A model generated the notes under the pieces. The model was not told the DNA's origin and made no database searches. It worked only from the letters and a program-made list of their open reading frames with translations. Below are positions 47,573-53,903 of a DNA stretch of 64,000 bases, in pieces. The position numbers were made by a program, and so were the translations under genes. The stretch comes from Aureispira sp. CCB-QB1. GTDB taxonomy: Bacteria; Bacteroidota; Bacteroidia; Chitinophagales; Saprospiraceae. The DNA lies in assembly GCF_000724545.1 (NCBI RefSeq), contig NZ_JHBV01000003.1, positions 1 through 64,000 of the forward strand, given 5' to 3'. The first letter of the stretch is position 1, and every line of letters starts with the position of its first letter.

Positions 47573-48952
47573 ATGAAACTAACAAAATTAGAGTTGTTAC
47601 TTTATCTAAGTATTATAGCTTTGCTTTTTTGTGCTCCTGCATTTTACAATGGCTTTCCCATTTTATTTCCTGATACTGCAAGTTATATCAATGCAGGTTT
47701 TATTGATAAAGTGCAAGGGTCTAGACCTTGGCTTTACAGTGGTTTCATTCGGCATATAAGTTTGTGGGAAACCTTATGGCTAGTTGTTTTTACACAAGGT
47801 TTTTTAATGGCGGGTACGGTCTATTTAATGTTCAAAGAGTTTTACCAAGGACAAAACAGGAATAAACTATTTATATTTTACAGTTTAATTATAGGAACTA
47901 CCACTGCTGTATCATTCCATGTAAGTAGATTGATGCCAGATATTTTTACACCTATAGTTATTTTACTTTTTGGTTTGATGTTGCTTGAAAAACATCTTAG
48001 TCGAAAAGAAAAAATCTTTGCTATTATACTATTTATAGCGGCATCAGGAATGCATAATTCACATTTAGTGATGAATATAGGGATGATCCTATTGGTTATC
48101 TTTGGGAGTTTGTTCAAGGCACTTCGAGTACATTACCAATCATTAGGAATCACAAAAAAAAGAGTTGGATGGTTGACCTTATGCGTTGTCATAACCCATT
48201 TATTTACTTGTACATTGCATTATTCTAAAAGTGGAGAATTTGTAGCAACTAGAGGGGGCTCCATCTTCTTATTTGCTCGACTGTGCGATTTTGGAATCGT
48301 ACAAAGTTATTTGGAAGAGCATTGTGGAGAAGACTTAAATGGCGGTATTTGCGACCATCCTGGCAAACTGTATTATGCTGGAAATTTTTTGTGGCACAAG
48401 AATTCTTACCTAAATAAAAGTGGTGGGTGGTCAAAACACAACGAGGCGTATTTTGGCGAATTGACCAAAAAAATATTGACAACGCCCAAATATCTAAAAG
48501 CTTATATCATACGTTCGATAGAGGCGACATTTATTCAATTTTTTATATTTGATTATAGCCCTGTAGAACCTCATATAAAATGGGTGACAGGTTCTGTCAA
48601 ATTATACTACCCCATGTACATATTGGCAGCAGATGGTAGTCGCCAAATGCAAGATGGTTACAATCAGAACTATGTTGATGTCAATAATGTGATTCAACAA
48701 ATCGTTGTATTTATATCTTTCTTGCTTGTTCTATTACTCTTGTGGCATCCTAAGACTTCAAAACAACAAAAAGCGTTGGCAATATTAATTATATTAAGTT
48801 TATTAGTTAATGCTTTCATAGGAGCAGCTACTTCAGGAGTGTTTGATCGTTATCAAAGCCGAGTCAATTGGCTGTTAACTTTACCTGCTTTTTGGATGGT
48901 TTGTTACTGGTTGAGTAAGTTTGAATTATTTGAAAAAAAAGCTAGAATATGA
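47573..48952 (+). CDS. Polytopic membrane protein, GT-C-like family, paralog 1
   Basis: The 459-residue protein is very hydrophobic, with about ten membrane helices starting at residues 7-25. I do not recognise a named family. Its outline resembles GT-C glycosyltransferases: a first helix and then an acidic motif in the first outer loop, NGFPILFPDTASYI with D34. Conserved segments shared with the two later paralogs are WLYSGFIRHISLWETLW (53-69), FHVSRLMPDIFTPIVIL, GMHNSHLVMNIG, LFARLCDFGIVQSYLEE and, before the last helix, DRYQSRVNWLLTLPAFW. Its stop overlaps the methyltransferase start by 4 bases (ATGA). It probably acts on a lipid-linked sugar at the inner membrane; this is inference. Confidence 0.8.
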   Translation: MKLTKLELLLYLSIIALLFCAPAFYNGFPILFPDTASYINAGFIDKVQGSRPWLYSGFIRHISLWETLWLVVFTQGFLMAGTVYLMFKEFYQGQNRNKLFIFYSLIIGTTTAVSFHVSRLMPDIFTPIVILLFGLMLLEKHLSRKEKIFAIILFIAASGMHNSHLVMNIGMILLVIFGSLFKALRVHYQSLGITKKRVGWLTLCVVITHLFTCTLHYSKSGEFVATRGGSIFLFARLCDFGIVQSYLEEHCGEDLNGGICDHPGKLYYAGNFLWHKNSYLNKSGGWSKHNEAYFGELTKKILTTPKYLKAYIIRSIEATFIQFFIFDYSPVEPHIKWVTGSVKLYYPMYILAADGSRQMQDGYNQNYVDVNNVIQQIVVFISFLLVLLLLWHPKTSKQQKALAILIILSLLVNAFIGAATSGVFDRYQSRVNWLLTLPAFWMVCYWLSKFELFEKKARI

Positions 48953-49628
48953 GTTCACCAATTGCTAAAAAAACTAAAAGTAATTTAGAAAAAACGATTA
49001 TAAAGTCACACCAGAAATTATCTCACAATAATAGAATTAATTATTTGTCTAATCTTTTTATAGGATTATTAGATGAATTAAATTTAGATGAAATTTCTTT
49101 GTTAGATATTGGTTGTGGCGATATGTCTATTGCTGAAAACTTGATGAATAGCAGGGAAACTATCAATGCGATATGTTTGGATACCTATCCGCTTCCTGAG
49201 CAATACAAGGGAGAAGAAAAGTGGGAAAAATATGTCAGTTTTGATGGACGAACGATGCCTTTTGAAGATAAAAAATTTGACGTGGCTATTTTGTGTGATG
49301 TGCTGCATCACGATTTTGAGTTTGCGGATGTTATCTTAAAAGAAGCTTGCAGGGTGGCAAAATACATAGTTGTTAAAGATCATTTCGAATATGGAATGGT
49401 TTCTCGACAAACATTACGTTTAATGGATTTTATTGGAAATTGGGATATGGCGTTTCTGTACCCGATCGATATTTTTCAAAAGAAACATATCAAGATGTAT
49501 TGAACCAGTTAGGAGGTGTGAAAGAATTAAAACAAATCTGCCCAATACCTCTGTATGAACATAATTTTCTTTTTAATCTAATTTGTCCAGGGAAGTTGCA
49601 ATACATTTCTATTCTGAAAAGTGCCTAG
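48949..49628 (+). pseudogene. SAM-dependent methyltransferase, frameshifted
   Basis: The gene starts ATGA-coupled to paralog 1. The first 160 or so codons encode a class I methyltransferase: ISLLDIGCGDMSIAENL (about 43-59) binds SAM, and KFDVAILCDVLHHDFEF is the motif after the third strand. In the original frame the sequence after MDFIGNW becomes unlike the family and stops at 49503. In the next frame, from about 49440, the family-like sequence GYGVSVPDRYFSKETYQDVL continues to 49628. One extra G in the TGGG run near 49441-49444 would restore one frame of about 227 codons. It is therefore either a recent mutation or a sequencing/assembly error. The acceptor is unknown. Confidence 0.8.
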
Positions 49629-49796
49629 TCATTTATGCTACTATTTATATAAAAAATAGCTATTATTGTTTTGCTATACCGACTTGTCTTTTAACTATAA
49701 TAGTGACTTGTTTAAAAATACGTTAGTTTGTTGGCTGTTTGCACAGAACTTTCGATAAATTAATGATAAAAAATTAATCATAAAAACTTGAACTCA

Positions 49797-50957
49797 ATGT
49801 CTGATGAACTTTTAGAATTGACAATTCTAATGCCTTGCTTGAATGAAGAACTTACGCTAGGAACTTGTATAAAAAAAGCAAAAAAATACTTAGAAGAAAA
49901 TAATATAAGAGGAGAGATTGTTATAGGAGATAATGGAAGTACAGATCGTTCGATTGAAATTGCGGAATCTCTAGGAGCTCGCGTAATCAACATTCCCCAA
50001 AAGGGCTACGGTAGTGCTTTAATTGGAGGAATAAAAGCAGCGAAGGGTAAGTATGTGATTATGGGGGATTCAGACGATAGCTATGATTTTTCAAGACTAA
50101 TGCCTTATGTCGAAAAACTGCGAGAGGGGAATGACTTAGTAATGGGCAATCGTTTTAAAGGAGGGATTGAAAAAGGAGCCATGCCATTTTTGCACAAGTA
50201 CTTGGGCAACCCTGTATTGTCATTTATTGGGCGCTTGTTTTTTAATACTTCTATTGGCGATTTTCACTGCGGTTTGAGAGGCTTTAATAGGGAGAGAATG
50301 TTATCTATTAATTTGGAATGTCCAGGAATGGAGTTTGCGTCAGAGATGGTGGTGAAGTCTATCTTAAATGATTTTAAAATTGCAGAAGTTCCAACAACTT
50401 TGTCTAAAGATGGAAGAGATCGTCCTCCTCATTTGAATACATGGACAGATGGATGGCGCCATTTAAGATTTTTGCTATTATATAGCCCTGCATGGTTGTT
50501 TTTATATCCTGGGATAGTGCTGTTTTTATTGGGAACAGTGTTGACGATAATGTTATTGTTGCAACCTTTACACATATTGGGGATTGAATTGGATATACAC
50601 ACTTTAGCATACAGTGCAACTAGTATTTTTATAGGTTTCCAGTTGATGTTTTTCTTCGTGTTCTCTAGAATATATGCTAGCATGAACGGATTGCTTCCTC
50701 CCAACAAACTGTATAATTATTACAAAAACAAGTTCTCTTTAGAGAAGGGGTTGATTTTAGGCGGTTGTTTTATTCTTTTAGGAATTGCTTTGGTCATTGC
50801 AGCGTGGCTTTCTTGGCAATCTGTGGATTATGGTGATTTAAAACCAAGAGAAACTCTACGTACTGTAATTCCATCTATCTTCTTCTTAATTGGAGGGATT
50901 CAAATTGCTCAAAGTAGCTTTTTAATTAGCATATTAGAACTAAAAAAAACAAAGTAA
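49797..50957 (+). CDS. GT2 glycosyltransferase, DPM1/undecaprenyl-phosphate type
   Basis: The 386-residue protein has a GT-A domain: LTILMPCLNEELTLGTC (8-24), then EIVIGDNGSTDRSIEIAESL and the metal-binding MGDSDDSYDF (DSD at 91-93). A C-terminal membrane region of about four helices follows, from about residue 220. This layout is typical of enzymes that load a sugar from a nucleotide donor onto polyprenyl phosphate. The ATG at 49797 (MSDELLELTI) is preferred to a TTG three codons earlier. The product could be the donor for the neighbouring GT-C-like proteins, which is the usual division of labour between such families. Confidence 0.88.
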   Translation: MSDELLELTILMPCLNEELTLGTCIKKAKKYLEENNIRGEIVIGDNGSTDRSIEIAESLGARVINIPQKGYGSALIGGIKAAKGKYVIMGDSDDSYDFSRLMPYVEKLREGNDLVMGNRFKGGIEKGAMPFLHKYLGNPVLSFIGRLFFNTSIGDFHCGLRGFNRERMLSINLECPGMEFASEMVVKSILNDFKIAEVPTTLSKDGRDRPPHLNTWTDGWRHLRFLLLYSPAWLFLYPGIVLFLLGTVLTIMLLLQPLHILGIELDIHTLAYSATSIFIGFQLMFFFVFSRIYASMNGLLPPNKLYNYYKNKFSLEKGLILGGCFILLGIALVIAAWLSWQSVDYGDLKPRETLRTVIPSIFFLIGGIQIAQSSFLISILELKKTK

Positions 50958-51118
50958 TTTATCCTTCAATCTAGTGCAGAATAGCATAAATTTTCAAATG
51001 AGTATTTTTTGTAAAATTTCTTGATTCTGTCATCAAATATGAGCGTTCTTGAATTTTATCAAAAATACTCTAATAACAATTAAAACTTCTGTTAGAATGT
51101 ACTTTGTAATTATCACCC

Positions 51119-52525
51119 ATGAAATGGACTCGTCTAGAGAAAATTAGTTACCTTTTAGTAGCTGTATTGGTTTTATGTATTCCCGCTTTTTACAATGGTT
51201 TTCCTTTTAGATTTCCAGATACCACAGGGTACTTAACATCAGGATTTGAGAATAAAATCGGAGATGCTCGTGCTTGGTTATATGCAGGTTTTATTAGGCA
51301 TGTAAGCTTATGGGAGACTTTATGGTTTGTTGTTTTTGCTCAGGGGCTGCTTATTACTGGAACAATTTACTTGTTGTTTAAATATTTTTTTAGGCATAAA
51401 TACAAGAGAGAGTTCGCGATAGTATATGTAATACTTGCAGGTTTGACGACAGCCATTTCTTTTCATGTGAGCATGTTGATGCCCGACATATTTACACCGA
51501 TAGTTATATTGAGCTTTGGTCTATTGCTTTTGGGAAAGGAATTATCGCAAAGAGATAAAATCCTTACTGTTTTCTTGTTTGTAGGAGCAACAGCAATGCA
51601 CAATTCGCACTTAGTATTAAATTTGGGAATATTAATTTTAATTGGTTTGACCATGCTTGTTAAACCTTGGCGCGTACAGTGGAATAGCTGGGGTGTAAAT
51701 GGGAGAAAATTAGTACTGTTGATTGGGCTTATATTCTTTACGCATCTAAGTGTTTGCACGTTGCATTATAGCAAAGGTGGGGAATTTAAAGCAACACGAG
51801 GAGGTACAATATTTCTTTTTGCTCGATTGTGTGATTTTGGAATTGCGCAAAGTTATTTAGAAGAGCATTGCAAAGATTCAGAGGATGCTATTTGTTCGCA
51901 TGTTCAAACTTTAAAATTAGGTAGAGGTTTTTTGTGGATGTGGCAAAGCTACTTGTATAAATCAGGAGGGTGGACAAAAGAAGGAGAAGCGTACTATGGG
52001 GAACTAGTTAAGGATATATTGACAACACCCAAGTATTTAAAGAAGTATATCATAAAGTCTACAGAGGCAATGTTCATGCAGTTTTTTTATTATGAAGTTG
52101 ATCCTCTATCCGAAATGCGAAATAAAGTGAAGGATAGTGGTTTGATTAAGACATATTTTGAAACTTATGATTTAGCAGCTGTACACAGCCGACAGTTTAA
52201 AAAAACATATAGTAATACATTCATTGAACGTCAGAATGCAGTTCAACAATTTGTAATCGCAATTGCGATGATTTTATTAGTATTGTTGTTTTGGGATAAG
52301 AAATATTCAAAACAACAAAAAGCTCTTACCGTTTTTATTGTATTAGGTTTGTTCGTTAATGCCTTTATCGCAGGAGCTACCTCAGGAGTGTATGATCGTT
52401 ATCAAAGTCGAGTAGCTTGGTTGCTTACCTTACCTGCTTTTTGGTATCTTTGTGCTAAGATAGAAACATTTGGTAAAATGCTATCTATAAGCAAAGATAC
52501 TACCATTGAAAAAGATGCATCGTAG
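51119..52525 (+). CDS. Polytopic membrane protein, GT-C-like family, paralog 2
   Basis: This 468-residue paralog of the product at 47573-48952 shares all its motifs: NGFPFRFPDTTGYL with D34, WLYAGFIRHVSLWETLW, FHVSMLMPDIFTPIVIL, AMHNSHLVLNLG, LHYSKGGEFKATRGG, LFARLCDFGIAQSYLEE and DRYQSRVAWLLTLPAFW. About ten membrane helices are present. The largest differences lie in the outer loop of about 310-375, which may determine substrate. Only 13 bases separate it from paralog 3, so those two are cotranscribed. Confidence 0.8.
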   Translation: MKWTRLEKISYLLVAVLVLCIPAFYNGFPFRFPDTTGYLTSGFENKIGDARAWLYAGFIRHVSLWETLWFVVFAQGLLITGTIYLLFKYFFRHKYKREFAIVYVILAGLTTAISFHVSMLMPDIFTPIVILSFGLLLLGKELSQRDKILTVFLFVGATAMHNSHLVLNLGILILIGLTMLVKPWRVQWNSWGVNGRKLVLLIGLIFFTHLSVCTLHYSKGGEFKATRGGTIFLFARLCDFGIAQSYLEEHCKDSEDAICSHVQTLKLGRGFLWMWQSYLYKSGGWTKEGEAYYGELVKDILTTPKYLKKYIIKSTEAMFMQFFYYEVDPLSEMRNKVKDSGLIKTYFETYDLAAVHSRQFKKTYSNTFIERQNAVQQFVIAIAMILLVLLFWDKKYSKQQKALTVFIVLGLFVNAFIAGATSGVYDRYQSRVAWLLTLPAFWYLCAKIETFGKMLSISKDTTIEKDAS

Positions 52526-52538
52526 AAAAATTAAGTAG

Positions 52539-53903
52539 ATGACTTTACTTCAAAAAATACTCTGTATAACCTTAGGTGCTTTAGTGCTCTGTGTACCTGC
52601 TTTTTACAATGGTTTTCCGTTTATGTTTCCCGATACCAATGGGTATATAATGACAGGTTTTACCAATGAAATAGGATATGCTAGGGTTTGGTTGTATGGA
52701 GGTTTTATAAGGCATATCAGTCTCTACGAATCGCCTTGGTTGGTCGTTATCGCACAAGGAATGTTAATTACAATGACCTTGTCTTTAGCGTTTAAGCATC
52801 TTTTTACCTGTTTTAATTGGCAAAAATATACCTTGCTTTATATTTTAGTGGTGGGACAGACGACAGCGGTTGCTTTTCACGTGAGTATGTTGATGCCTGA
52901 TACCTTTACACCTATTGTTATTCTAAGCTTGTGCTTGCTTTTGTTTGGCAAAAAAATGTCAAAAAGTGCCACTATCTTAAGCGTCATCTTGTTTATGATG
53001 GCAACAGCAATGCACAATGCGCACTTAATACTAAATATTGGTTTGATTATAGGTTTGAGTCTTTTGATGCTGGTAAAAAAGGTGCGTTTGTTCTTAAAAA
53101 GTTGTGGAATAGGCTATCGAAAAATAGCTTGGCTTGGAGGATTGGTAATTATAACTCATTTGTTGGTGTGTACCTTGCACTATAGCAAAGGAGGAGCTTT
53201 TCAAGCAACCAAAGGCGGGCAAATCTTTCTTTTTGCACGGTTGTGTGATTTTGGAATTGCTCAAAGTTATTTGAAAGAAAATCGTGATATAGAAAAATTA
53301 AACCAACTGTATGATAATGTGACGAGCTTAGGTTTAGGAGCTCATTTTTTGTGGTCAGGCGAAAGTTATCTTTACCAAACGGGAGGTTGGACAAAAGAAA
53401 ATGAAGCCTTTTACGGAAAACTTGTTAAAAATATATTGACAACACCCAAATATTTAAAAAAATACCTTATCAAAACGATGGAAACAACCCTTATGCAGTT
53501 CTTTTCTTATGAAAGAAGCCCTCATTCTGAACTGTATGGTGTTAATGCAAATGTAATCAATACCTATTTCCCAACTTATACATTAGCGGCAAAACACAGT
53601 AGACAACTGAAGCGCTCTTATAACGAGAGTTCTATTGAGAATCGAAATGCGATTCAACATGGTTTACTAATGTTATCTATGATAGTAATTTTAGTTATGT
53701 TGTGGAATTCAGGATATTCAAAATATCAAAAAGCAATCGCCTTATTTATTCTTTTTGCATTATTGTTAAATGCTTTTATTGCTGCTGCCTCTTCAGGTGT
53801 TTTTCATCGTTATCAAAGCCGAGTTGCTTGGTTGGTTACATTGCCTGCCTTTTATTTTATTAGTGATAAAGTTCATAACATATTTACTAGGATTAAAGAA
53901 TAA
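52539..53903 (+). CDS. Polytopic membrane protein, GT-C-like family, paralog 3
   Basis: This 454-residue paralog has the same topology: NGFPFMFPDTNGYIM with D32, WLYGGFIRHISLYESPW, FHVSMLMPDTFTPIVIL, AMHNAHLILNIG, LHYSKGGAFQATKGG, LFARLCDFGIAQSYL and HRYQSRVAWLVTLPAFY. It differs from the other two in ESPW for ETLW and in His for Asp before RYQSR. It is closer to paralog 2 than to paralog 1, which suggests the nearer duplication is the younger. It is the last gene of the cluster. Confidence 0.8.
   Translation: MTLLQKILCITLGALVLCVPAFYNGFPFMFPDTNGYIMTGFTNEIGYARVWLYGGFIRHISLYESPWLVVIAQGMLITMTLSLAFKHLFTCFNWQKYTLLYILVVGQTTAVAFHVSMLMPDTFTPIVILSLCLLLFGKKMSKSATILSVILFMMATAMHNAHLILNIGLIIGLSLLMLVKKVRLFLKSCGIGYRKIAWLGGLVIITHLLVCTLHYSKGGAFQATKGGQIFLFARLCDFGIAQSYLKENRDIEKLNQLYDNVTSLGLGAHFLWSGESYLYQTGGWTKENEAFYGKLVKNILTTPKYLKKYLIKTMETTLMQFFSYERSPHSELYGVNANVINTYFPTYTLAAKHSRQLKRSYNESSIENRNAIQHGLLMLSMIVILVMLWNSGYSKYQKAIALFILFALLLNAFIAAASSGVFHRYQSRVAWLVTLPAFYFISDKVHNIFTRIKE

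Follow-up and report, generated by a model that had tools for sequence, protein, structure and literature searches.

Paralogous membrane proteins of an uncatalogued family in Aureispira are probable GT-C glycosyltransferases with recurrent GT2 neighbours

We analysed a 64,000-nucleotide stretch of contig NZ_JHBV01000003.1 (the window) from Aureispira sp. CCB-QB1 (Saprospiraceae, Bacteroidota; genome size 7.37 Mb), following up an earlier reading made from the letters of the DNA (the sequence-only reading). The locus of interest carries three paralogous multi-helix membrane proteins (A, B and C), a glycosyltransferase family 2 protein (GT2) and an S-adenosylmethionine (SAM)-dependent methyltransferase, all on one strand in the order A, methyltransferase, GT2, B, C. 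It is likely that the GT2 makes a polyprenyl-phosphate-linked sugar and that the paralogs are GT-C-like enzymes which transfer it to envelope glycans or lipids outside the inner membrane. The features of the locus, with the open reading frame (ORF) and other evidence for each, are as follows.

47573..48952, forward strand: paralog A, 459 amino acids (aa), member of an unnamed family and probable GT-C glycosyltransferase (ORF and alignment)
48949..49503, forward strand: SAM-dependent methyltransferase, 184-aa ORF shortened by a frameshift (Pfam Methyltransf_11; intact relatives)
49504..49628, forward strand: remainder of the methyltransferase in another frame, open to a TAG (three-frame reading; C-terminal likeness, by eye, to the intact protein of Aureispira locus L025)
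49788..50957, forward strand: GT2, 389 aa as called from TTG, probable polyprenyl-phosphate glycosyltransferase, GtrB/AglJ/DPM1-like (Pfam, NCBIfam, PDB, PHROG, hydropathy)
51119..52525, forward strand: paralog B, 468 aa (ORF and alignment; AF2 model with pTM 0.73)
52539..53903, forward strand: paralog C, 454 aa, without the C-x7-C cysteine pair (ORF and alignment)

Paralog A and the start of the methyltransferase overlap by 4 bases. The three paralogs share 48-56% pairwise identity, with a mean column identity of 71%. They had been described beforehand as bearing a set of common motifs, and all of these (FPDT, WLYxGFIRH, SxLMPDxFTPIVIL, MHNxHL, LFARLCDFG and RYQSRV) were found in the 459-, 468- and 454-residue proteins. 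The GT2 and the methyltransferase placed on the same strand are likewise both present by Pfam match, but the methyltransferase ORF is interrupted and only 184 aa long. When paralog B was searched against its own genome, it retrieved C (E 4e-166) and A (E 3e-164), far past chance, and a fourth paralog on contig C29 (L028:8480-9874, E 3e-141), which has no adjacent GT2.

Direct annotation of the paralogs by Pfam, NCBIfam, PADLOC and PHROGs was rejected, as it yielded nothing usable. No Pfam or NCBIfam match of the window paralogs reached its cut-off, and those below it were to DUF6341 (E 0.11), DUF2178, AOX (0.1) and DUF1686. Members of an 8-row family alignment matched DUF3043 (E 0.0004) and DUF6594 (0.009), each once and in a single member. 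The Pfam PMT_2 model matched none of the three window paralogs, the 8 alignment members or four more distant members. A PDB sequence search with the 8-row profile returned no match up to E 10, PADLOC had no match for the paralogs, and PHROGs contributed one group without an assigned function (E 0.005). Searches of viral contigs and phage records found no family relative. A literature search turned up no paper joining Saprospiraceae, glycosyltransferase and GT-C, and none of the titles or abstract beginnings listed by further searches names the family. The Pfam, NCBIfam and PDB sequence searches agree with the earlier statement that no named family covers the paralogs. The family is uncatalogued in Pfam and NCBIfam, the libraries searched; the system itself is ordinary in kind, a loader together with lipid-sugar-dependent transferases.

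We assembled 27 members into a family alignment, hidden Markov model (HMM) and tree, with residue numbers following paralog B. N26, P29, D34, Y38, R51, Y55, D123, H161 and R427 are kept in all 27 members, and H164 in 25. D34 is followed by Thr in 22 members, Ser in four and Asp in one. Profiles for comparison were built from proteins of the relatives: PMT_2 (30 sequences), GT87 (24), Wzx (28), MFS (22) and Wzy (24). With hhalign, whose values here are one-profile comparisons and not a database search, the 27-member profile matched PMT_2 with a probability of 73.8% (E 2.9e-5), compared to 0.5 for GT87, 0.6 for Wzx, 0.3 for MFS and 0.5 for Wzy. Forty shuffles of the family profile in blocks of 20 columns reached at most 1.6 against PMT_2, and reversed family profiles 0.5. 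Each half of the family still matched PMT_2 (49 and 42; maximum of 4.1 against the other four profiles), and adding a Sphingomonas member, described below, gave 72. A positive control, GT87 against PMT_2, scored 96.7. In the realigned pair, D34 and Y38 align with the D and Y in DExxY of PMT_2, the R51 block lies near the PMT_2 KPP block, and D123 falls on an Asp after the third PMT_2 helix.

Two AlphaFold2 (AF2) models were calculated from shallow alignments of 8 and 9 rows (model 1: mean pLDDT 69.6, pTM 0.73; model 2: 63.8, pTM 0.68). Foldseek searches of the PDB with model 1 placed the oligosaccharyltransferase PglB first (probability 0.92, TMq 0.40, E 0.29), with all others at 0.12 or less among the best 50 of 173 rows. 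For model 2, the highest probabilities among the best 50 of 139 rows were those of PglB (0.51; E 0.99, TMq 0.35), human OST (0.25) and AftA (0.16). We regard these matches as consistent leads from predicted models, not as proof. In the topology read from model 1, with the membrane helices picked by hand, TM1 leads into an outer loop that contains short helices. Six central helices follow, then, between helices 7 and 8, an outer loop of 147 residues, and finally three more helices, which makes about 10 in all. Conservation in 25 or more of the 27 rows is seen at 33 positions, none of them in an inner loop of this topology, and the nine invariant residues from N26 to R427 are in outer loops. Lys and Arg make up 16-27% of the inner loops and 0-11% of four of the five outer loops, the last outer loop having 19%.

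These features can be compared with those set out for GT-C enzymes. Passages in PMC12041299 describe a GT-CA module of seven helices and two juxtamembrane helices, the first of which lies between TM1 and TM2 and has the catalytic Asp at its tip. In model 1, the invariant D34 stands at the start of a helix spanning residues 33-43, a placement that is weak at a pLDDT of ~48 for residues 31-40. Passages in PMC6801728, which treat mainly eukaryotic enzymes, list a DxD/DD/DE pair in loop 1, a conserved R and/or D/E/N/Q in the TM3-TM4 loop, a conserved R/K (or N/Q) in the TM5-TM6 loop, and an Rx4-14P pattern in the outer loop that lies close to the final helices. The family has D123 in its TM3-TM4 loop and His (H161, H164) in place of R/K in its TM5-TM6 loop. 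R427 is followed, ahead of the last helix, by Pro after 9-11 residues (at 9 or 11) in 24 of the 27 members. The PMT_2 profile match, the appearance of PglB with both models and the recurrent GT2 neighbours described below indicate that the paralogs are probable GT-C glycosyltransferases. The earlier suggestion of GT-C-like proteins thus gains from the controlled profile comparison and the one-faced invariant residues, and less from the two structure models, the fold itself being unproven.

The window GT2 matches Pfam Glycos_transf_2 (E 3e-26). Its best NCBIfam model is TIGR04182, AglJ (E 4e-37, 128 bits, under the cut-off of 325), its PDB match is dolichol monophosphate mannose synthase (5mlz, E 2e-12), and it resembles the GtrB-like PHROG 841 (E 2e-18). 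Five hydrophobic segments lie within residues 228-382, and an ATG occurs 9 bases beyond the called TTG start. By sequence resemblance, it is probably a polyprenyl-phosphate glycosyltransferase of the GtrB/AglJ/DPM1 type, one of 27 GT2 matches in its own genome.

To place the locus, we matched its flanking genes in relatives by sequence resemblance. Three Aureispira species share one chromosomal site, in which a subtilase and an OmpA-like protein precede the locus and a large sensor-kinase-like ORF follows on the opposite strand. The site holds 1, 3 or 4 copies: methyltransferase-GT2-one copy in genome G003 (L058), A-methyltransferase-GT2-B-C in the species of the window, and A-methyltransferase-GT2-B-C'-C in the Aureispira metagenome-assembled genome (MAG) of L025. 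The 27-member tree joins window A, B and C with their L025 counterparts (support 100/100, 99/98 and 98/99), indicating that these copies are older than the split of the two species, and clusters the C29 paralog with the single G003 copy (95/98). The 8-row profile matched 18 of 199 Saprospiraceae genomes, own species counted, three of them only partially (G011, G178, G207). Beyond the own genome, a search of 395 genomes from across the phylum gave only three matches, all weak, partial and C-terminal. A Bacteroidales MAG encodes a near full-length member (L026), of which L027 is a near copy. A single one of 72,556 plasmid records matched, from Sphingomonas parapaucimobilis (24% identity, 91% coverage). 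This protein matches the 27-member HMM at E 1e-54 (for a fixed search space of one million), keeps the family motifs and is the sole annotated member seen, as a 'hypothetical protein' (L241).

We then retrieved 22 family loci, several from one genus. A GT2 gene is adjacent in 8 of them, and a Pfam-supported PMT_2 protein in three more (L073, on both sides, L074 and L075). Outside Aureispira, 4 of the 13 genomes with a full-length member (12 genera) have an adjacent GT2. With ~0.9% expected for each, the chance probability of this is 4e-6, an estimate which combines the 13-29 GT2 matches counted in each genome with an assumed density of 850 genes per Mb. Two of these neighbours (L062, L064) are orthologues of the long window GT2, and two (L061, L063) are 240-aa GT2 proteins. 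At a threshold of E 1e-60, orthologues of the window GT2 were found in 8 of the 199 Saprospiraceae genomes, and the family is present in 5 of these 8 compared to 13 of the 191 others (p 1.6e-4), or 4 of 7 compared to 12 of 105 when counted by genus (p 0.008). The Sphingomonas family gene forms a divergent pair with a GT2 gene between clpP and tig (L241:10840-13314), and the best NCBIfam model of this GT2 is also AglJ (205 bits, under the same cut-off). Four loci have a GT2 orthologue without a family neighbour. The orthologue lies beside a PMT_2-like protein in L227 (23.4 bits; Pfam cut-off 26.1) and L228 (31.3 bits). In L226, its neighbour is GtrA, followed by a protein weakly similar to PMT_2; L225 has no recognisable GT-C neighbour. 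Taken together, the GT2 adjacency, the Sphingomonas pair and the PMT_2 partners elsewhere imply that the family, in part of its range, occupies the usual place of a GT-C enzyme. The expected association with GT2 loaders is therefore recurrent but not general; the absence of any recurrent link, which the sequence-only reading had named as counting against it, was not what the neighbourhoods showed. We also observed sulfotransferase genes near the GT2 orthologues (L225, L226, L227), as well as a YfhO-type protein (L226) and GtrA (L226, L228). The settings in L225-L228 apparently represent a surface-glycan decoration module in Saprospiraceae.

Several results weigh against a GT-C assignment with a dedicated GT2 loader. 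DT or DS occurs in 26 of the 27 members, which lack the second acid of the DxD/DD/DE motif. The profile match fell to 34 and 18 when the PMT_2 set was split, and other match-column settings gave 82-83 but spanned only ~80 columns. The family does not match GT87, although GT87 and PMT_2 match one another strongly, and one of the reversed-profile controls scored 11.4 with Wzy. Model confidence is limited in both AF2 models and lowest around the putative catalytic loop; Foldseek matches all fell short of E 0.001, with TM-scores of at most 0.40 among the rows listed, and PglB ranks fifth by E-value for model 2. In 11 of the 22 loci, there is neither a GT2 nor a PMT_2 neighbour, and genomes G143, G166 and G193 have the GT2 orthologue with no family match. 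The locus has no GtrA flippase gene, and G002, G003 and G007 likewise gave no match; the single GtrA match of the own genome is on contig C35.

We considered whether the paralogs could be lipid or glycan transporters, of flippase or MFS-like type, which move the GT2 product. Multi-helix proteins adjoining a GT2 at a locus without GtrA would suit such a role, but the Wzx and MFS profiles score far below PMT_2, the invariant residues lie on one face together with the large outer loop, and a flippase would hardly be expected in three copies per loader. A transporter fold had been named beforehand as refuting GT-C; Foldseek instead favours PglB, and Wzx and MFS do not exceed 0.6. We consider this explanation very unlikely. 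The same holds for Wzy/WaaL-type polymerases or ligases of lipid-linked oligosaccharides, as opposed to monosaccharide-transferring GT-CA enzymes. Their size and helix number are generally alike, and the 11.4 of the reversed control was obtained with Wzy, but the Wzy_C profile in its true orientation gave just 0.5, and the paired GT2, by analogy with its family, would make phosphate-linked and not diphosphate-linked donors.

It is also unlikely, in our view, that the paralogs are GT-C enzymes whose linkage to the GT2 is incidental in Aureispira, the donor coming from another loader. The abundance of GT2 genes in the genome, the C29 paralog and the 14 of 22 loci with no adjacent GT2 speak for this, whereas the recurrence of the linkage across genera and in another phylum, and the co-occurrence of the GT2 orthologue with the family by genome and by genus, speak against it.

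PMT_2 (PF13231) GT-C enzymes include ArnT-like proteins. The family resembles PMT_2 in its D..Y motif after helix 1 and a second Asp after helix 3, co-linear over ~200 profile columns, and differs from it in the lack of any match to the PMT_2 model, in the DT/DS that replaces DE, and in its helix number and large outer loop. Both the window and Sphingomonas GT2 proteins have the dolichyl-phosphate glycosyltransferase AglJ as best NCBIfam model, but each remains below the equivalog cut-off. Gtr systems for O-antigen modification consist of a GtrA flippase, a GtrB GT2 and a serotype-specific GT-C, according to passages in PMC11127046. Compared with that account, the Aureispira locus likewise has a GtrB-like loader adjoining GT-C-like proteins, a likeness by sequence similarity only. 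It differs in having no GtrA, three or four GT-C-like copies per loader, an extra methyltransferase, and the same chromosomal site in three species. The same passages describe three-component GT136 pentofuranose systems, in which a polyprenyl phosphoribose synthase acts as loader and a MATE-family protein as flippase. With these, as described there, the Aureispira system would share a lipid-phosphate sugar donor and a GT-C that resembles no earlier family in sequence, and it is distinguished by a GT2 loader and the lack of a flippase at the locus.

In the mechanism that we favour, with GT-C-like paralogs served by the neighbouring GT2, the GT2 would load polyprenyl phosphate, at the cytoplasmic face, with a sugar taken from a nucleotide donor. 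The lipid-linked sugar would then cross the membrane by a flippase, and the three paralogs, whose active sites would face outward from the inner membrane, would attach it to glycans or lipids of the envelope. The predicted catalytic residues are Asp34, in the first outer loop, together with Asp123, His161 and Arg427. It is probable that all copies use one common donor and act on different acceptors or at different sites. The sequence-only reading had proposed diversified acceptors, for which there is a hint solely in residues 326-365. This region has 34-50% identity among the window paralogs, compared to 79-85% for the A and B orthologs but just 45% for C, and is the best candidate for acceptor specificity as judged from the alignment. 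C251 and C259 (C-x7-C) are both present in 26 of the 27 members and both lost in window paralog C; such joint retention or loss is as predicted for an outer-loop disulfide.

The methyltransferase (Pfam Methyltransf_11, E 1e-10), where intact, may alter the sugar or the acceptor. It has 226 aa in the same-species genome G156 (L056) and in the L025 MAG, and the corresponding ORF in G003 has 237 aa. Over 8 kb around the locus, the window and the same-species genome are 99.34% identical, with a single gap opening. This gap is a one-base difference inside the methyltransferase (48949-49628). Either the gene was lost recently or the assembly is in error here.

In one locus (L067:6885-10612), the family gene and a PorZ gene (NCBIfam 559 bits, cut-off 260) overlap by a few bases. 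LpxK lies four genes away from this family gene, a possible link to lipid A or anionic lipopolysaccharide (A-LPS). A role in the type IX secretion system (T9SS) and A-LPS was set aside as the principal explanation, since it comes from this single locus and the Sphingomonas member speaks against a T9SS-only role. Sphingomonas is, to our knowledge, without a T9SS, and a role restricted to it is thus disfavoured. It is possible, though doubtful, that the proteins constitute a GT-C family new at the CAZy level, with members in at least Bacteroidota and Alphaproteobacteria, in which AglJ-type loaders serve several copies each and one sugar reaches different acceptors. In Bacteroidota, one such acceptor may be the lipopolysaccharide that anchors T9SS cargo, considering the overlap with PorZ, an anionic-LPS delivery protein.

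Residues D34, D123 and R427 and the two-gene Sphingomonas pair make these predictions directly testable. A probable GT-C enzyme with a specific GT2 partner would reveal a route of envelope glycosylation, present in two or more phyla, that annotation has missed.

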